DNA of 64,000 nucleotides from Panopea generosa (lineage: Eukaryota > Mollusca > Bivalvia > Adapedonta > Hiatellidae). A program made the translations under genes and the position numbers. This document shows, piece after piece, positions 13,601-60,329 of this stretch. The first letter of the stretch is position 1. Each line of letters starts with the position of its first letter. The stretch is from NCBI GenBank assembly GCA_029582155.1, contig CM055895.1, positions 46,016,750 through 46,080,749 on the forward strand, read 5' to 3'. Under the pieces are notes generated by a model. It was not told where the DNA came from. It worked only from the letters and a program-made list of their open reading frames with translations, and searched no databases.

Positions 13601-16600
13601 ACCAATTAAACTGGAGCTTCACATGGATGTTTCTATTGCATAGGAGACTATACAGAAGATTTTTTTTTTCGATCTGATATTCAAGATGGCCACCATTACT
13701 AAAAATAGTCCAAAACTTAATGATGACCAACTATAGTTTTGTTAGATTTGTTCAAATGGTGTCCCTAGGGTTAAAAAGGACCCCGCCCCGAGGGTTCAAC
13801 TAGGGGACACATGTCACTATAACATTATTTTTTTTTATTTTTTTTAAATAGAAATGATTTTGCCTATATCTTCACAAAAGCATTGTTAGGTGGAGGTGGT
13901 TCAGATTTGTAAAAATGACTGGGTTCCTATGTCTTAAGGGGACAGGAGGGACCCCAAAAGGGTACAAATTGGGAATTACTAAAATCGTTTTCTTAAGAAC
14001 CGGTATGTCAGATTTGTACATATTTGATATAAATTATCCTTAAGTGTAGGGGTTTGATTGCAGATAAGAATTTAGGGGCTAAAATTTATAGGAGCCTTGT
14101 AAGTTCAATGATTTTTCACGGAGTAATGGCCCTTTAATTGAGTCTGTGACCAAATTCTTGTCCGGGCTTTTTCTCTATAACATCTGGTTGGAATTTTATG
14201 AAACTTGCTAGGATGCATCATTACCAAGTGCAGATGCGCATATTGTCTTTGTGTTCAGGTTCAATGATTTTGCACTGAGTTATGGCCCTTTGATTCTGTC
14301 TGTGACCAAATTCTTGTCTGCGCTATTTCTCTACAACCCCATGTGGGAATTTTATGAAACTTGGTAGGGTGCATCATTACCAAGTGCAGATGTGCATATT
14401 GTCTATGTGTTCTGGTTCAATGATTTTTCACAGAGTTATGGCCCTTTAATTGAGTCTGTGATCAAATTCTTGTCCACACTATTTCTCTACAACCTCAGGT
14501 TGGAATTTTATGAAACTTGCATGATTTCCAAGTGGAGATGTGCATATTGTCTTCATGACGCTATTTAGCTACAACCTCTGGTTTCAATTTTGTAAAACTA
14601 GCTAGGATATGCACATATTGTCATTTTGTTTAAGTTTAATGATTTGCGAATGAGTTCTGTCAAGTGCAGAGCCATATATTGTTCTTACTATGCAGTTTTT
14701 TTTTTTTCAACCAAGTAGCCATCAGCACTAAGGAAATATGGTACAGAGTCAAACAATCACTTGGGGAGCATCCATCGGTTCCACCGATATTTTCTTGTTT
14801 TTATTTATTCTGAAACCACTTGGCCAATTAAACTGAAACTTTGCATGGATGTTCCTTTTGCATAGGAGACTATACAGAAGATTTTTTTTCTATCTAAAAT
14901 TCAAGATAGCCACTGTTACTAAAAATAGTCCAAATTTAAAAAATCTTCTTCTCATGAACGGCCCAACAGATTTTCAAAATGTTTATGTAGTAATGATGAC
15001 CAACTATAGTTTTAGTAGATTTGTTCAAATGGTGTCCCTAGGGTTAAAAATGACCCTGCCCTGATGTTTCTATTGCATAGGATAATTTCAAAAAGTGCTA
15101 TGGCACTATGAGCATGGAGCGTCCTCAGGCCCTCCTGGGCCTCTTGTTATTGTTTCCCTCCATGAATAATTTTTTAAAAATTCTTTTGATCTTCTATGGT
15201 AAAAAGATTATTAAATTGGCCAATGACCATTGATTTATGAACACACTTCACATACTGTAATGTTTATGCCCCACTATTTGAAGAATGCTGAAGTGGGAAA
15301 ATGTCATCTCCTAATCTATTACTTTGTGTGTTAGTTTATTTGGTTTTCGCTGAATAACTTCTAAAAGGGTCTATGTATTTATTTAATATTTGGTGTGTAG
15401 CTGTGTAATCATAAAATGCAGGTCAATACAAATGTATTTGTCTGTGTTGGTAAAATTTTATAGTTGTTATGGCCCCTTTTTGACTTAATTTTTGGTTGAA
15501 TTTAGTAACATATAGTTGGGGCCATTAGTCTCTCACATATCTAGTAAATAATAGTTTTAAAACAAAAAATTGGCAAATTTACTTAAAATGGTCATTAGAG
15601 CCTCGTGACATTTTAACTTTATGAATTTTAAAAAATTGTTTGTGTAAAATATATGCAGGAGTAGAAGCTTCAAAGTCTAGTGTATTTTCATATGGACCAT
15701 GTAATTGTGGAATTAAACATTTTTACCATGAAATGCCATGGGAAAATGGAAATATGTCATTTCCAATTTATTTTTGACAGAATTTTTATAATTGTTTGGT
15801 GTTATTATGCAATGAACTTGAAGAAGAAAGTAAATTGTTTTTTTCATTATTATATGGACATGTTTAGTCGTACAAGCCAAGATGGGGATACAATAGAGCT
15901 GAGGACAATACTAAAGACTGGTTGATAGAGGTACCACAGAACGTAGGTACGTATAAACAGACATCGATCAGTATTATAAGTTCTTACCCTATGTGGGTTG
16001 AGGTATGAATAGAAAATCTGAACTGAAAAAACCATGAATGATTCTTTTTCTTGAATACCAAACCCGTTAAATACTTTTTTTTAAAAATTAATTCATCTTT
16101 ATATTTCACCATGTTCTCTTTTTAAGACACCAAATTATGTTATTTATGTTGTGTATTTGTATTTGCCACATCATGGATAGTTCTCCATTAAAATGTGAGA
16201 ATTTTATCCTGGACCTAGGATGAGATAGAAATATCTAGTCCCAGTAAAAAAAATGGAGATATCTTTACCCCAGTATGCAAGAAAGTCGTCCATTTTGACA
16301 TTGTAATCAGGCTGACCTTGCTGTTGATTGAATTTGTTATCTTTAGAAACAACAATTTCTGAACTATCACATTTTAATTTTAACTTGTATACAAGGCTTA
16401 TTGAGGGGTGATAAATGTTGGTATTGAGATAAGTAACTAACTTGTCCTTTAAAACTGGATGCCATAATGTAACCTATAGTGTGTTGAAAATTGGCGATAC
16501 ACCCAATTTAAAATGCTGTTGGAATTGTAACTTGGATACCTGTGTGACTTGGATGAGATACTGTAAAAGGACAGATTTTTTAATATAAAAGACTGACATA

Positions 16601-28524: not shown

Positions 28525-31500
28525 TCATTGTTTTTTCTTTTGGAGTGTTTCAACGAAGTACGCTTCCCAGGCTTTTGTCATTCGCTGACGAAGAACATTG
28601 TGCTCTGCCCATTTACCTACAATCACAAAGAAATCATTGAAATCATATATGGGGATGGTGTTAGTACAGCAGTGGGAGAGGTGCAGATAAGTATGAAAGA
28701 AGAGAAAACAGAGTCAATTAAGTTAAGAGCACATCTATGATATAAAAAATGAGAAATTATTATATATATATATGTCATTTAAACATTAATACATTTAAAA
28801 TTGCAATATTAGACATTAAAAATGCAGGTTGTATAAGACCTCCAAACCAAAATTAAGAATTGTCATGTACATAAGCAACAATGCTCCAGCTCATGTAATG
28901 CATGTTACTGGATCAGCAAAGTTGTATAGATAAAGGTAACATTCTTAATTGAATGGAAACACTGAATTAAAGCAAGAACATAATGAACATTTAATTTGAT
29001 GCGTTCATACGTTTATTCAAGAGAGTGAACACTTTCGACCACATAAACCGCCTAATGATTAATGTTGAATTACAGAGCAATGATGTTTTGTTGACATGTA
29101 CATGCATATATCTTCTCTTCTATCTTTCCACCATTATCTTTTCAAATTACTGTTTATCCTCTGTTTGATCAATGTACTAAGCATTTCGCACTTTACTTAT
29201 TCTTCCCAGTTTTTACATGAATAGTGTATACTATTCAGAGAATATGTTTTCGCTTAAGCATTGTATTTTTTTTTTATAAAAGTACAACTTTCTAATAACA
29301 CTTTAGCCATGCATTAGTTTTATGTAATATTGTATTTGGGGAAGAGTCGCAACTAACGTTGTAAGAACGTGTGACGCGAACCAATTGTATATTTATGGCA
29401 ATGAAATATGTTTAAACTAAACTAAACCGAATAAACATTAAATTATTGACAGAGATAGAGCTGATAATTTATATAAGAAAATATATTTCAAATCATTTAA
29501 ATTTATTTTACAATAAAATAACTTGCGTTATCCACATTCAAGGGGCTTAATTTTATAATATGTAATATGGACTTATAGTTAATAAAATTTGTGCAACACT
29601 GAAAAGCTATTTTGCGGCAATACATACAAGGTAATAAATGACGGCTATTACTCTATATATTAACAACACCAGAGTATTTATGAGATCCATTATGCAAGTT
29701 TACATAATGTTTACATATATATTATATAATGATACTCTTGGAGCTTATATAACAATCAGACGCCGGGGGAGCGTAACAGACACGTACTGATGATCAAGTG
29801 CCAGAACCCACGTGAATCCTCCCCATAACGTGCATTTATCGAAAATGTACACACACGTCCCACAATGCCATGTCTACTACAAGTAGATATAAAACAGATT
29901 TCTGATCAAAGAGTTTTCTTTTTTCAAATTCTTGATTGCGTGTTGTGGTACTAAAGACAATTGGCGAATCCATGTGATTTGATGCCACGTAGTTGTGTAA
30001 ACAATAGAGAAAAAGTGCCTGTTTCAAGCAACACTTTTGCAGGTAACTTTCTTAATATTTTATAAAATTTCACAAAACAAAGACAAACACCATCTCTTTA
30101 CATAGATGAACCACCAGTGCTGTCAAGTGGACATGCAAAACTAGTGTTTTTATTTTGGGCAAAAAGTGCAATGGCGTATTTTTGTAAATTGCACCTTTCC
30201 ATACTATAATTGTTTCAACTGAGCATTTTACGCCGTTGCATATTTTGCAAAAAAAAACTACTAGATTTGCATGTATATCAATAGTACCGATGGTGCATCT
30301 CTATACAGAGATGGCGTGCATTTTTGTTTCGTGAATTTTCATGCATTATCATCGATTTTCACACCACTCCACATGGGTTCGCCACCTTCAGAATGATCGG
30401 GATTTTTGTAGATTTGAGGCAAATTTGAATATGTGCCTTGAGTGATGGGGGCATGAAGGTTATTAAACATGTACCTTTTTAACTGTAATTTGGAAATCCG
30501 AGGGAGCTCTTGACCCCCTGTCCCACACCCAGATTCAACAATGTGTATGCTATACATCTAAGAAAAATCTCCTATTTATTAATGCATAGCCACAGTCAAC
30601 CAATTAACTACCTTATTTAGGTGCAGAATCAATGGTTCAACCACAGAATACGCATGGAATTTCAAATGATACTGTTTACATGTACCGAACCAAAATTTAT
30701 TATAAATAATTTTCTATACTTACTAAGTTCATCTTTCTGATAACGCCATTTGTCCGGATCCTGGTATTTGAATAGATGCACTTGGTCATTGAACTCTGTC
30801 TTTGTGGTGCTAATTTTGTGATCCATCGTATACCCTGGAACTACATTCATTCGCAAGGCGTTGCCTAGCATTTCGTATTCGGGATTTAGTTCTTTTGTGA
30901 ATTTTGGTACGACAAAAGGTTTGCTTTTTCTTTCTACACTGGCTCTCATGTCGTCTTGTTTTCTAAGAGTCTTTTCAACAGTTGCTTTATCAGACAGTAA
31001 ATTATCACAAACTCGACTGCCAAACTGATGTTTAATATTTGGCGGGAGATCAACGACAGCGGCGCCAGTACGGCGTGCTGTGCGGGCGCTTGTGCTTCCA
31101 TTTGCAGGCGGCATGTTTCCTTCTGCAAGGGCACCTCTTAGGTCGCCTTTCCCGTAACCCTGATTTCTCATTTGAATCTCAGTCCTTTCTCTGCGTGGGA
31201 AATCCATGCCTGGTTTAAGTACGTCACCGATATAACTGTAATTATGAATGGGTGCCCTACGACCGTATTTATCTCTATTATAACTCTGATTTTTGTTTAA
31301 CCCAACAATGTTAATCTCACGAGCTCCTTCTAGATCTTTTCCTGTGAACCACTGAGACCGACTTGTTCCAGGTGCCTCGGGTGCCGAGTTTGCACCGTCA
31401 ACTCGGGATAGATTGTACAATGCTTCTTCTTCCTTTTGTTTGAGGCTGTCTCTGGCAGTACAGGCGACACCTTTCTGGTTATTAACCGCACGTCTAGACT

Positions 31501-34500
31501 TCTCTAAAACTATAGCACCTGAAATTATATTGTGTTATACATAAAATTGTCTTATTCTTTCGATGTACGTGAGAGTAAACTATAGACGGCATCATAATCC
31601 TTGCTGACAATACTGCCGGCCGTTTAAATCACAGTAACCTTAACACCGCGTTAGGATGGAATTTCGAATCATGGTATTTCCTACAGTTAATACATTTAAA
31701 GTAACATGTGTGGTGTCCTTGAGCAAGACACTTTATCTGCATACGCTTTGTACTGGTTCTACCGAGGAGGACTTCAAGCGTGATTTGCCTAGATATTATT
31801 ACAACTTTTTTTCATATCAAGTGCGATAGGTAATGGAAAAAGAATGACATTTTATTACGGTTGTCGCTTAATTGTTTTGCTTTAAACTTATTTATTTTGC
31901 TTTGATTGTGAAAATCGAAGTAAAATAAATAAATTTAAATTAAAACAATTAATCGGCAATCCTGACAAAATATCATTCTTCTTTTATAACCAAATTGTAC
32001 TTTGGATTTTGAAAATATTGAACAAATAGATTTTTACTTTATTAGTGGAGAGTTTAGCTAATGGAGATTTAAGAAACTCGACCAATATTGCCAGTCACCA
32101 GCAGCACACCGATTCATGTAACCATTTATCAGAGCCGGTAGTTTCAATCTCTGTTCTCGTAAACTTCCTGTAAAGTTTATTCCCTTTTATAGTTTGTGAC
32201 GAGAGATGGGAATGAAGCTGAACAGGGTACCAGGTGGGTTACTGTCATACGCTCGTTCGATTGAATTAAAACTATTTAACCGACGTGAGCTGACCAGCAG
32301 ACAAGTAGCGGGGACGTCATCAAAATAACCACCTCAGCAACGTGGCACATGGCGATCTATCATCTGGTAAACACATGTGATTAACACATGGTAACCAACA
32401 TTACAGTAACACAGCAACCTTATATACAAGTCCACATTTATAAAAAAATCACAGAATAAACCATACTCTTAACTTCAACTATTTTGTGGATTTCCTGTTC
32501 TCGTATACAATATCAACATTGCACGACAACACTGTATGAGATCCACATTATATGATATCTACACTATATGAGATCAACATTATATGAGAACAACAGTGTA
32601 TGACGGTTTGTTCCCAATAAACAAGATTAAAGCAAAGACAAAAAATGCAAATCCAAACTTTTATTATAAATTGACAAAATAAACCACATTCAACAGTTAC
32701 TTTTTTATGACGTTTCCTCTCCTCGGTTCCTTCCCATTAAACAATATTTAAAGAAAAAAGAGAAAAATACGATCCCCATTTTTATCATTAATATACAAAA
32801 TAAGCCATATTCTTCAATTGTTTATGGAGCTCCTCTCCTCGGGTTTTCCCCTTTAACAGATTTAAAGCAAAGTCAAAATTGTCAGTCAAAATCTTTAATA
32901 CAAATTTACAAAATAAACAACATTTTACTTCAAATATTTAACAGAGTTCGACATCTTATTTTCTTGCCATTAAACACGATTTAAAGAAAATACTAACATG
33001 CAAGCCTAAACTTTTATTCTTTTAAATTAACAAAATAAACAAAATTCTTACTTCAACTTTTTTATAAAGGTCCCCTTCTCGGTTCTTCCAATTGAATAAT
33101 ATCTAAATGCAAGTCCAAAGTCTTAACCATTTAATGTGATTCAGGTATGTTTGTATTAAAACCCACTAAGTGTTATACACGCACACCGGTTATAAAGTAT
33201 ACGGACAATAATAAAGTTCTGTGCGTTCTTTATTGATCTGACATGTAAATCCTACAAATGTGATTGAAATAATCGATAATCTGCACTGACAATGGTAGTC
33301 CAGGTACATTGTGAAATATAAATGACAAAGTAAATTTGAAATCCAAGACAGACAATCAACAAAGTGGAAATCTTTTGATACACTCACCCAGGTTATCAGA
33401 CGCATGCACCGATAACCATGCCCTGAAGTCCTAGTGATCAAGGGTGTGTATTAAACAAAGGCAAGACGTATATGTCTGGGTATATTTGAATACACTATAA
33501 ATCAGTGACAGACGGGCAGACTAATATCAATACAATGTACATGACTGAAATTTCGGATGGCACATTTAAAGTCTTTTAAAGGGAGTATTCCAGGATAAAA
33601 CGTCAAACATGTTTTAAAAAAAAAAAATAAATAATTATCAAAAAGAATAAAACACATCTCATTATCCTTAATAATCATAAACCGAGTTAGTTTTGTATGT
33701 CAAATCCACCAAAACGTGATAAGAGCGATATTTAAATTTGAGTTTCTAAAAACTATTTGACATCGTCATTCTGAATCTTTCTAAGATGAAACAATTTTAA
33801 CTACGTGTCAACCTGAATAACGGATCAAATTGAAATCAAAGTAAAATCGTATTACTCATTTAATATGTCACATAATGTGTTTCCATTTAAGGACGGAAAT
33901 CGATTTTAGTCTAACCTAAGCGCGAAGCCCAAGTTGGAAATCTCCTTTTTAAAATGCTATTTTGGCATGTTTAAATATATATATTTTGGCCAATATGGGG
34001 GTCAGTGAATATATATACACTCAAAGGAAAAAGAAAGATTACTTTTTGGTTTTTAAATTATTTCATTATTGGCTAAGTTTATTCATGTGATGGAAAATGA
34101 ATTGATTTTTTATTATTGTTTTGTTTTGAAATGAATTAAATGTTTGTTTTTTTATTCAACAATATGATGAAATATAAATATACAAAATTTATATGCAATG
34201 CATTTATTGTTCCTTGACCTGTCGACGTTTATAGGTGTGTATACTTTCTTTTTCCTTTCACTATATATAATAAATACAGGCATGGCATATTGGAAAAATG
34301 TTTTTAGCCAATTTTAAAATTTTTGAAAAAAATCCTGAGAAATTCTCGTTTTAACTCTTTGCCCTGGAACCTTTGGCTGTAGTTAATGTGTGTGTTACCA
34401 AAGTACATGTAGAACTAATAAATATAACTGACTATTTCCAATTATCAACTATTTAATTTTTTTTCTGAATTTGAATAATAACGTGTCGAAAACGAAATAC

Positions 34501-39050: not shown

Positions 39051-39378
39051 CCCTGTGGTATTTATATGGACTAGACCCCGGATAACAGTATATACCAGTC
39101 CTGTGGTATTTATATGGTCTAGACCTCGGGTACCCGTATCTACCATTCCTATGATATTTATATGGTCTAGACCTCGGGTACCCGTATCTACCATTCCTAT
39201 GATATTTATATGGTCTAGACCTCGGGTACCAGTATCTACCAGTCAGGTGATATTAATATGGACTAAACCTCGAGTACCAGTATCTACTTATATGGACTAG
39301 ACTAAGACCTCGGGTAACAGTATCTACCAGGTCTGTGATATGTATAATGGTCTAGACCTCGGGTACCAGTATATAAGT
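39051..39378. repeat. 48-bp tandem array (~6.5 copies)
   Basis: The unit contains GATATTTATATGGTCTAGAC and CTCGGGTACCAGTATCTACC. Each copy carries palindromic TCTAGA and GGTACC sites. The period is 16 codons, so one frame stays open (39055-39300), but there is no sign that it is expressed. Confidence 0.9.
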
Positions 39379-44484: not shown

Positions 44485-47400
44485 ATGGCAGCAAGAACTT
44501 TACTGCGTAGACTGAACCATGTTAATCAAAGGTTACAAATGAGAGGTTTGGCTGGACTGACCAGGCCATTAACGTCTGTCCATCTAAACCAACAGAGGTT
44601 AACACAAGTTCCAGATGTACAGCGTTACAGTCAGATACGAGGCCTGTGTTGTAAAACTGGCGATGGAATGATCATTAACATACAGGATGAAAATGATTTT
44701 GAGGAGAGAGTTATGAAGTGTAACGTCCCGGTAGTGATTGACTTCCATGCTACGTATGTATTTCATTGTCAACCTTTCTATTTGGTCCTCTATGTTTTGT
44801 TCTTTTTTTGTTCATTTCATTGCTAACCCTAGTACATTTTTCTATACTGAGCATGTATTTCATTGCCAATCCTGGTACATTTTTCTTGGCTCTGTATATA
44901 TTTCACTGCCAATCCTAGTACATTTTTCTTGACTCTGTATATATATTTCACTGCCAATCCTGGTACATTTTTCTTGACTCTGTATATATTTCACTGCCAA
45001 TCCTGGTACATTTTTCTTGGCTCTGTATATATTTCACTGCCAATCCTGGTACATTTTTCTTGACTCTGTATGTATTTTACTGCCAATCCTGGTACATTTT
45101 TCTTGGCTCTGTATATATGTCATTGCAAATCCTGGTACATTTTTTCCTGGCTCTGTTACCATGTATTTTATTGCAAACCATGGGGCCAAAGTTAAAAAGT
45201 TGTTTGTTTGCTGTCTCCCTACCTACCCACCAATAAAAAAAATGCCTACTCAAACAAACAAAAAATCAGATTTGGAAAAACTATTGTATAAGAGTTTTTT
45301 CCCTATCAGACTTCTCAATTTTTGGAAACAATTTCTTCCATGCTGTGTATTTTATTGTCAGCTTTAATACATTTCTTCCATGTTCCGTTTAATTGATTTT
45401 TTTTTATCTGAAACTTATACTTTCTGTATGTGCAGTTTCTGTACACATGTCTGGACACTCTGATTCCATACCTGATTACCTGCGTCATCATCATGATATT
45501 ACATTACCGAGTATAAAGTGTACAAGTAATATTGGTTATATTCTGTGGGTGGTTGACACTTATGTAAGTTACATTTATACGTAAACTACACTAAACATAA
45601 ACTTAAGATGTAGTGAAAACAGAAATTAAAATTACCTTACTGTTTAAATGGGACTTCATTATTGTCATAAAATATTAATTTTTTAGGTGTATTCGTTTAC
45701 TATATTCCCAGAACTGAATGCTGTTGGGGTTCCGAGAGTGAGGTAGATGCATTTTGTAAAAAGGGGTTGTTTATTTGGGCTGAGAAATCAGAATTAAATA
45801 TTAAATGAAGTGTGTGAAAAATTTCATAAAACATGTTTCCAGTGATGAGGCATTTATTCAGTTTTAAAATGTTTAAATCAGACTTGAAATCTACACAACT
45901 TGATAAAAATGAATGAGGGTATTTATTCTGAATTTATGGTATATTGAATGTGTATTAAAAGCCAAACAGGTGTTTGTTGTATAATTGAACGTTGATAATG
46001 ATTGTCATTTCAGGTGTGTTGAATAATTGAACAATGATAATCTTATTTTAGGTGTGTTGTATAACTGAACGTAGATAATGATTGTCATTTCAGGTGTGTT
46101 GAATAACTGAACAATGATAATCTCATTTTTGGTGTGTTGTATAATTGAACAGTGATTATCTCATTTTTGGTTTGTTAAATAATTGAACAGTGATTATCTC
46201 ATTTTTGGTTTGTTAAATAATTGAACAATGATAATCTCATTTTAGGTGTGTTGAATAATTGAATGATCATAATCTCATTTTAGGTGTGTTGTATAATTGA
46301 ACAATGATAATGTCATTTTAGGTGTGTTGTATAATTGAACAGTGATTATCTCATTTTTGGTTTGTTAAATAATTGAACAATGATTATCTCATTTTTGGTT
46401 TGTTAAATAATTGAACAATGATAATCTCATTTTAGGTGTGTTGAATAATTGAATGATCATAATCTCATTTTAGGTGTGTTGTATAATTGAACAATGATAA
46501 TGTCATTTTAGGTGTGTTGAATAATTGAACGACGATAATCTCATTTAAGGTGTGTTGAATAATTGAACGACAATAATCTCATTTTAGGTGTGTTGAATAA
46601 TTGAACGATGATAATCTCATTTTAGGTGTGTTGAATAATTGAACGATGATAATCTCTTTTTAGGTGTGTTGAATAACTGAACGATGATAATCTCATTTTA
46701 GGTGTGTTATATAATTGAACGATGATATTCTCATTTTAGGTGTGTTATATAATTGAACGATGATAATCTCATTATAGGTGGTGTGGACCATGTAAGCTGC
46801 TTGGGCCACGTCTTGAAGCTCTGGTCGGTGCCAGGAAAGGCGAAGTTATTCTTGCCAAAATTGACGTTGACGAAAATACCGAGATTGCTATGAGATACAG
46901 GGTACAGTAATTTCTTATTACAAGCATATGATCAGGCAAGAAAAATACACTGAAAGTCGGTATTACAATTATATTGTAATAATATAGAGCTATTCCCCTA
47001 GTTCACATATTTAACATCTCTAGAAAGCCTTTAAAGATTATTTTGTTTTGCGTCTACTGAGACAGCAGATCAGGTATCCAAATAATAAAAATATACCAGT
47101 ATGCGCCATTTTTAATCTGGCTTCTATTTCCCAGGCAACAAGAAAAGTGCTGGGTTATGCTTACCCAACACACCCAACATTAAAATTATTATCAACCATA
47201 AATCACGACCATGTTCAGGTGCAAAACCAGGTATAAGCACGTACACCAATTCATACAATTTGTCAGCAAAAGTAATACATAAAAATTCCAAATATATGTA
47301 ATAAGAGGGTATCCCCACCTGACTCTTCTGTTTAGGTTTCAAATGACAATCGACTTTCATAACCATCATGAGCATGAATGCATTATGGATACATATTAAC

Positions 47401-47829
47401 TATTGTAGTTTTAAATGGCGAGACATTGTCATGGCATGATAAGCAATGAGTTTTAAAATGATTTTCCAAACCTTGCTAAAATGAAGTATAAAAGTGACAA
47501 ACAAATGCCACATTAACACTGCAATATAATACGAGAATGAAACATTTGCCATATAATTTTCAAAATGTTCTTAATGGAGTCCAAACCCCGCACCAATGGG
47601 AGGGGGAGACTCCCTTCTACACTTGCCCTCAACTCATTGTGATTTGCTCTGATCAAATTCGTTTAAGTATGCCCTTGGTCACAGTTTTAACATCAAATTT
47701 CATAATTTCTTTCAGATTCAGTCTGTACCAACAGTTATGGGAATCAGAAACCAGGAACAGATAGACAGGTTTATTGGTCTTCAAGATGATGATAAAATAG
47801 AAACTTTTCTGGATAAACTGATTGGTTAA
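44485..47829 (+). CDS. TXN2: TXN2, mitochondrial thioredoxin (3 coding exons)
   Basis: Exons are 44475-44753 (coding from 44485), 46778-46901 and 47716-47829: 507 nt, 168 aa, close to the human length. TXN2 reduces protein disulfides in the mitochondrial matrix, working with TXNRD2 and peroxiredoxin 3. Residues 1-55 form an Arg-rich, acid-poor presequence starting MAARTLLRRLN. The thioredoxin fold follows: VVIDFHATWCGPCKLLGP (83-100) with active-site Cys92 and Cys95, KIDVDEN (117-123), SVPTV with cis-Pro136, and C-terminal FLDKLIG. All catalytic residues are intact. The intron after 44753 splits the Thr90 codon just before the active site. An out-of-frame ATG at 44478 in the same exon is a poorer start choice. 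Confidence 0.95.
44754..45180. repeat. 43-bp tandem array at the 5' end of TXN2 coding intron 1
   Basis: About nine units of GTATATATTTCACTGCCAAT followed by CCTGGTACATTTTTCTTGGC and TCT. The first degenerate unit starts exactly at the splice donor (GTATGTATTTCATTG, 44754). Later units keep GTATAT or GTATGT in the donor position. Confidence 0.85.
45960..46777. repeat. 38-bp tandem array at the 3' end of TXN2 coding intron 1
   Basis: Twenty-one units of AGGTGTGTTGAATAATTGAA followed by CGATGATAATCTCATTTT. The last unit supplies the real acceptor (CTCATTATAG, ending 46777). Sixteen upstream unit boundaries keep AG and five read TTTTTGG. Confidence 0.9.
46902..47715 (+). other. TXN2 coding intron 2
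   Basis: 814 bases from GTACAG to TTTCAG; nothing else recognised. Confidence 0.6.
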
Positions 47830-53228: not shown

Positions 53229-53930
53229 ATGCACATATATATTTTTTGTGTTCCGGTTCGATCATTTTTCACAGAGTTATGGCCCTTGATTCTGTTTGTG
53301 ACCAAATTCTTTTCTGCGCTATTTCTCTACAACCCCATGTTGGAATTTTATGAAACTTGCTAGGATGCATCATTACTAAGTGTAGATGCGCATATTGTCT
53401 ATGTTCCGGTTCAATGATTTTCACAGAGTTATGGCACTTTCATTGAGTCTGTGACCAAATAATTGTCTGCATTATTTCTCTACAACCCCATGTTGGAATT
53501 TTATGAAACTTGCTAGGATGCATCATTACCAAGTGCAGATGGGCATATTGTCTTTGTGTTCCTGTTCGATGATTTTTCACAGAGTTATGGCAGTTTCATT
53601 CCGTTTGTGACCAAATTCTTCTCTGCTCTATTTCTTTACAACCTCTGGTTGGAAGTTTATGAAACTTGCTAGGATGCATCATTACCAAGTGGAAATGTGC
53701 ATATTGTCTTCATGGCACTTTTTCCCTACAACCTCTGGTTTTAATTTTTGTAAAACTAGCTTGGATCTGCGCATTTTGTCATTTTGTTCCAGTTCAATGA
53801 TTTGGGAATGAGTTTTGTGAAGTGCAGAACCACATATTGTTCCTGTTTGGTATTTTTGAACCAAGTAGCTGGTACAGAGTCAAACACTCACTTGGGGAGC
53901 ATCCATCGGTTCCACCGATATTTTCTTGTT
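53229..53930 (+). mobile_element. Element B3
   Basis: Same ~130-bp internal units and the same end (ACCGATATTTTCTTGTT) as B1 and B2; the left end is truncated. Confidence 0.6.
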
Positions 53931-59867: not shown

Positions 59868-60320
59868 CTCAGCATCTGCATTATATAATGCAGGTTGTTA
59901 GTTGTAACTATGACCAAAGTATGAGTGTCCTAGCACTAGTACTTGTTGAGAAATAGTGTAAAACTGAAAACTTAAGGTTGGAGCTAAATGCAAAATTAAG
60001 CATCAAACAATATCAATGGACCATGAAATGTAAGCCACACTCAGCATTTGCAGAATATAATATAATGCAGGTTGTTAGTTTTAACTTTGATCCAAGTATG
60101 AGTGTCCTAGCACTTGTACTTGTTGAGAAAAAGTGTAAAAACGAAAACTTAACGTTGGTGCTAAATGCAAAATTCAGCATCAAACAATATCAATGGACCA
60201 TGAAATGTGGGTCACACTTAGCATCTGCAGAATATAATATGATGCAGGGTGTTAGTTATAACTATGATCCACGTATGAGTGTCCTAGCACTTGTAAAACG
60301 AAAACTTAACGTTGCTAAAT
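59868..60320. repeat. ~175-bp tandem repeat (2.5 copies)
   Basis: Units start CTCAGCAT.TGCA near 59868, 60040 and 60217 and share TATGAGTGTCCTAGCACTTG and CAATATCAATGGACCATGAA. One frame is open for 115 codons (59978-60325) with a repeated SIKQYQWTMKC peptide; there is no evidence that it is a gene. Confidence 0.75.
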
Positions 60321-60329
60321 ATTAATGTT

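Follow-up and report, generated by a model that had tools for sequence, protein, structure and literature searches.

Recursive splice sites, or ratchet points, are known as single, conserved sites in very long introns, at which an AG|GT word joins an acceptor to a donor so that splicing regenerates the donor. In a human example of a repeat that carries splice sites, the minisatellite of IFI6 (6-16) reportedly gives multiple splice donors. The closest described relatives of the structure reported here are the "mirages" of amphioxus. These are minisatellite-like tandem copies of an intron/exon boundary, located at the 3' or 5' ends of introns and many of them with AG/GT signals, which show length turnover and instability, are reported not to disturb splicing, and occur in Adh3, troponin C, the globins BflGb6 and BflGb9, and PGBD5 (excerpts of PMC3087553 and PMC3902484). 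A related idea is that introns can be gained by tandem duplication of AGGT segments (cited in PMC3087553; excerpts of PMC4974935). This kind of array is therefore already known, and has been described before mainly in lancelets. Among the open-licence PMC papers searched, we saw no mollusc mirages (excerpts of PMC3862624 and PMC4732748), and no related report in which recursive splicing is combined with minisatellites.

We analyzed a 64,000-nucleotide stretch of the Panopea generosa genome (hereafter the window), which contains a TXN2-like gene of three exons (Table 1). When joined, the exons encode a complete mitochondrial thioredoxin: the spliced protein matches Pfam PF00085, and its best PDB match is 1uvz ("THIOREDOXIN, MITOCHONDRIAL"; E 1.5e-39), colinear over the junction. 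A genome search for thioredoxin gave six matches, of which three are exons 1-3 of this gene and three are weak, thioredoxin-like matches on contigs C8 and C11 and on a distant part of C2; no second strong TXN2-like copy was found in this search. The genome is low in GC (0.337). One of seven long open reading frames of the window that were scanned has a Pfam match, a TEX33 family frame (PF15400, E 3e-13) at 30665-31534 on the minus strand, which neighbors the TXN2-like gene. TEX33 and TXN2 both lie at human 22q12.3, and their linkage here may be old.

Table 1. Features of the TXN2-like gene and its first intron (window positions).
Feature	Positions	Strand	Description	Basis
TXN2-like exon 1	44485..44753	+	codes from ATG: MAARTLL...VIDFHA + AC	splice translation, mitochondrial thioredoxin match
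Intron 1	44754..46777	+	2,024 nt, GTATGT...ATAG	
43-bp array, 5' end of intron 1	44754..45154	+	clear units 44808/44851 to 45154; donor 44754-44773 is a diverged in-register copy	
38-bp array, 3' end of intron 1	45969..46777	+	21 units; AG at 16/21 upstream boundaries	
Five-unit block 46131-46320, copied as 46321-46510	46131..46510	+	189/190 identical	
Last 38-bp unit with functional acceptor CTCATTATAG	46739..46777	+	candidate branch points TTGAAC (A 46757) and TGATAAT (A 46766), by inspection	
Exon 2	46778..46901	+	124 nt, TWCGPCK...MRYR, donor AGG|GTACAG	
Exon 3	47716..47829	+	IQSVPTV...KLIG, then stop	

Intron 1 is lengthened by tandem copying of both its own ends, and together the arrays account for about 60% of it (809 + 401 nt). 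The sequence-only reading of this DNA had described an array of 38-bp units that runs into the acceptor of the exon encoding WCGPCK, and we confirm it. Tandem Repeats Finder reports period 38 and 20.3 copies at 46005-46780, and splitting at GGT boundaries yields 21 units, the first of 44 bp, the third of 42 bp, and the other 19 of 38 bp. The array ends exactly at the G of the acceptor boundary. Its start had been placed at 45960; we find that 45960-45967 lie outside the array and that the first unit begins at 45969, and a degenerate extra unit before this point is no better than chance (345 of 2,000 shuffles and 239 of 3,708 other stretches are as good). At up to 3 mismatches, the 38-mer unit has 15 matches in the window versus a mean of 0.00 in 100 shuffles. 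As had been proposed, the real acceptor is in register with the repeat, whose units reproduce the 3'-terminal sequence of the intron. The units share about 3-4 nt with exon 2 (the GTG after AG), and past this GTG their similarity to the exon is no more than expected by chance (permutation p 0.46).

AG|GT signals are present in many but not all units. The earlier count of AG at 16 of the 21 upstream boundaries is reproduced by unit splitting; the other five read TGG (46131, 46169, 46207, 46359, and 46397). These five are not independent: units 5-9 recur as units 10-14, so that 46169 and 46207 have their duplicates in 46359 and 46397, and such a near-identical block in the one haplotype analyzed points to recent turnover. 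The other units are 0.82-0.95 identical to the last one, and some units that lie five apart are identical. Intron 1 contains 55 AGs in total, and the outcome of splicing was listed for those from 45961 on. The real one aside, these number 21 (16 boundary decoys, 4 elsewhere inside the array, and 1 just before it), and splicing to any of them leads to a stop, while 46777 alone yields TWCGPCK. The claim that use of a decoy would truncate the protein is supported.

The earlier description covered half of the structure: the donor at 44754 is also in register with an array of its own in the same intron. This second array, of 43-bp units, spans 44814-45156 with 7.9 copies (Tandem Repeats Finder), and its phase is that of the donor, in that the units start with GTATATATTTCACTGCC or GTATGTATTTTACTGCC and the intron starts with GTATGTATTTCATTGTC. 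After the donor GTATGT, 12 of 14 bases match a 43-bp unit; across both strands of the window, none of the 3,668 other GTA/GTG sites reaches this match, and none of 3,162 other 60-nt stretches scores as high against the unit as the donor stretch does. Other tests of donor membership are weaker: nhmmer gives E 0.031 for 64 kb versus 0.12 at an unrelated site (35751), and shuffled versions of the donor stretch reach its score 19 times in 2,000. Between the donor and the first clear unit, positions 44774-44807 show little similarity. On a human matrix, all six decoy donors of this array fall short of the native donor (3.07 bits), with a score of 1.67 for one and -2.72 for the other five, and reading through from exon 1 to any of them encounters a stop at 44824.

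Based on these features, the locus resembles the amphioxus mirages in having tandem minisatellites at intron/exon boundaries, here of a TXN2-like intron 1, with AG/GT in many units. It differs in its GC-poor genome, in an exon overlap of only 3-4 nt, and in the presence of arrays at both ends of one intron. Unit sizes also differ: the array here has 21 units of about 38 bp, the two haplotypes of BflGb6 have 6 and 3 units, each 150-160 bp long, and the units of Adh3 measure 10-72 bp. As in IFI6, minisatellite units are splice sites, although those of IFI6 are donors and those here are acceptors. The decoys share with recursive splice sites the juxtaposed AG|GT acceptor and donor, a layout that would regenerate a candidate donor on splicing; unlike the known sites, they are predicted from sequence and form a tandem array in a 2-kb intron. 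Lastly, duplication between AGGT words beside a splice site recalls the proposed route of intron gain, except that what is seen here is the lengthening of an existing intron and not a new one.

Where did the two arrays come from? At up to 3 mismatches, a search of the 1.474-Gb assembly finds 15 matches to the 38-bp unit and 6 to the 43-bp unit, all within intron 1 (these counts are lower bounds, as the search skips very common words). With no match to either unit outside this intron, the arrays most likely grew in place, and we reject a transposon or dispersed satellite as their source on the same grounds. The 3' array has AGGTG at both edges, at 45968 and at the acceptor, which points to a microhomology-mediated duplication of some 40 bp flanked by two copies of this word. 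In the scenario that we favor, this 5-bp microhomology probably founded the 3' array, which would then have expanded and contracted through ordinary array turnover, and a similar event at the 5' end may have copied the start of the intron. Because the exon cannot be overwritten, the array would end where the exon begins, leaving its last copy as the one that is used. Taken together, we regard two home-grown, mirage-type minisatellites that grew neutrally, with the last copy in use, as the probable explanation of the locus.

To place these arrays in context, we surveyed minisatellites in the window plus 200 kb nearby, which is the neighborhood of the locus and not a random sample. These 264 kb contain 43 arrays that cover 8.6% of the sequence, and 4 of the 30 arrays with at least 5 copies, the 38-bp array included, have AGGT in at least 70% of their units. 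Given that minisatellites are common in the neighborhood, an array that touches a splice site is not very unlikely in this genome. If growth was purely neutral, finding two in-register arrays in one intron calls for some coincidence, but a modest one if about 9% of the DNA consists of such arrays. With the duplicated units 10-14 of the 21 left out, there are 17 variable columns among the 38, and those of the AG|GT core vary no less than the others (P 0.39); this comparison gives no signal of selection for keeping or removing decoy AGs.

The survey also returned a number of other repeats. The edges of 16 window arrays were listed, and the window's other AGGT-rich array is a 48-bp array at 39052-39372, whose roughly 6.8 units carry AGGT 6 times on the minus strand. 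In the nearby sequence, the arrays L029:1689-2725 and L031:1885-2922 agree in period (50 bp), copy number (20.6), and number of AGGT words and lie about 20 kb apart, and L030 and L032 hold a similar pair (45 bp, 16.3 and 21.3 copies); both pairs perhaps reflect local segmental duplication. Two further window arrays, at 14103-14520 and 53245-53710, have similar 156-bp units, both containing TTTTTCACAGAGTTATGGC, and may resemble the dispersed satellites of bivalves. A 177-bp tandem repeat of 2.3 copies at 59883-60322 has a 122-aa open frame across it with no Pfam match.

We next consider how the true acceptor is chosen. Acceptor strength does not decide the choice: on the human matrix, the real site scores 4.28 and 11 of the 16 intact decoys score at least as high, with 46739 at 6.87. 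By inspection, TTGAAC, TGATAAT, or variants of them provide every unit with candidate branch points; a short run of pyrimidines is also present, as is AG in the majority of units, and each 3' unit thus appears to be a self-contained acceptor. How the spliceosome picks the last AG had been raised as a real question. We find a smaller puzzle than was claimed, as there is no AG between 46739 and 46777, nor between the candidate branch points of the last unit and 46777. A candidate branch point in the last unit, such as the A of TTGAAC about 20 nt upstream of the true AG (by inspection), would therefore make the real AG the first one encountered, and the question that stands is which branch point is chosen rather than how AGs are skipped. 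The GC content of the array is 0.27 and that of exon 2 is 0.50, which would make exon definition across exon 2 the plain explanation: the last unit is most likely picked because it borders the GC-richer exon 2 with its donor, and the lack of any other AG between its candidate branch point and the true AG would be a second factor. Base pairing between the 5' and 3' arrays as a means of joining the intron ends is ruled out by duplex energies (-12.3 versus a shuffle mean of -20.3). With 20 shuffles each, the RNA structure of the first 800 nt of the 3' array is weaker than that of shuffles (-151.1 versus -169.2, sd 7.2) and that of the 5' array is slightly stronger (-64.5 versus -57.7, sd 5.6).

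Other explanations of the array assign it a role in expression or dismiss it as an error. The sequence-only reading had suggested a rheostat, in which decoys take a share of splicing, their products undergo nonsense-mediated decay, and copy number sets TXN2 output. The stop after every non-real AG from 45961 on, the decoy acceptor scores on the human matrix, and the stop at 44824 fit this idea, but early stops are expected anyway in AT-rich intron sequence, the AG positions carry no selection signal, and the amphioxus mirage arrays are reported without aberrant mRNA (excerpts of PMC3087553 and PMC3902484). We therefore view the rheostat as possible but unsupported, and on balance unlikely. The array could also be an artefact of assembly, given that assembly easily collapses or inflates runs of near-identical units and that the 190-bp block copy, with its identical units five apart, could be such an error. 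Most units differ, however, and their differences help to anchor reads; the contig is also chromosome-scale, at 100 Mb, and we consider an artefact very improbable.

A further reading starts from the sequence downstream of the decoys. AG|GTGTGT is present at 15 of the 21 upstream boundaries, or 15 of the 16 decoys with AG, and by matrix score splicing onto one of these decoys would rebuild a donor; as with recursive splice sites, later rounds of splicing could then reverse the error. Under such a tandem ratchet, splicing exon 1 to a decoy would form the donor TAC|GTGTGT, which would be respliced to a later AG until the poor donor TAC|GTGGTG is reached. On the human matrix, the regenerated donor scores 3.54 bits, the native TAC|GTATGT 3.07, and the true junction -0.74; in place, the decoy TAG|GTGTGT scores 7.87 on this matrix, above 98.2% of 3,748 plus-strand GTs of the window. 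With the exception of 46739, each of the 15 lies 76 nt or more from the true AG. GTGTGT follows 15 of 16 AG boundaries and GTTTGT 4 of 5 non-AG boundaries among the 21 upstream (Fisher p 0.004), but this p is not a fair test because most of the association traces to a single lineage of related units. The U1 duplex energies fail to tell the cases apart and tend in the opposite direction (-2.1 for both the regenerated and native donors versus -3.3 for the true junction; in place, -5.8 for the decoy versus -6.3 for the true site). Moreover, the amphioxus arrays are reported to splice normally, and recursion is absent from the mirage section of PMC3087553. On this evidence we hold it to be quite unlikely that splicing onto any of the 15 decoys is undone in this way. 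Of the earlier claim that every decoy is a poison acceptor, the stop after each decoy stands, while the poisoning holds only if splicing ends there, as 15 of the 16 are also donor-like. If the ratchet were real, true poisoning would be confined to the last decoy, 46739, since the 38 nt between it and the true AG are probably too short for a further intron; splice-site arrays would then be self-correcting, which would explain why genomes tolerate them.

In summary, the arrays of intron 1 are both real and striking, and they most likely represent a neutral double array of the mirage type in which the last copy is in use. The locus is an example of an intron that has grown by copying both its ends. 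It also offers a natural test bed for acceptor choice, as one of a row of near-identical modules must win in a gene without a second strong copy. Finally, it extends to a bivalve genome a pattern known mainly from lancelets.
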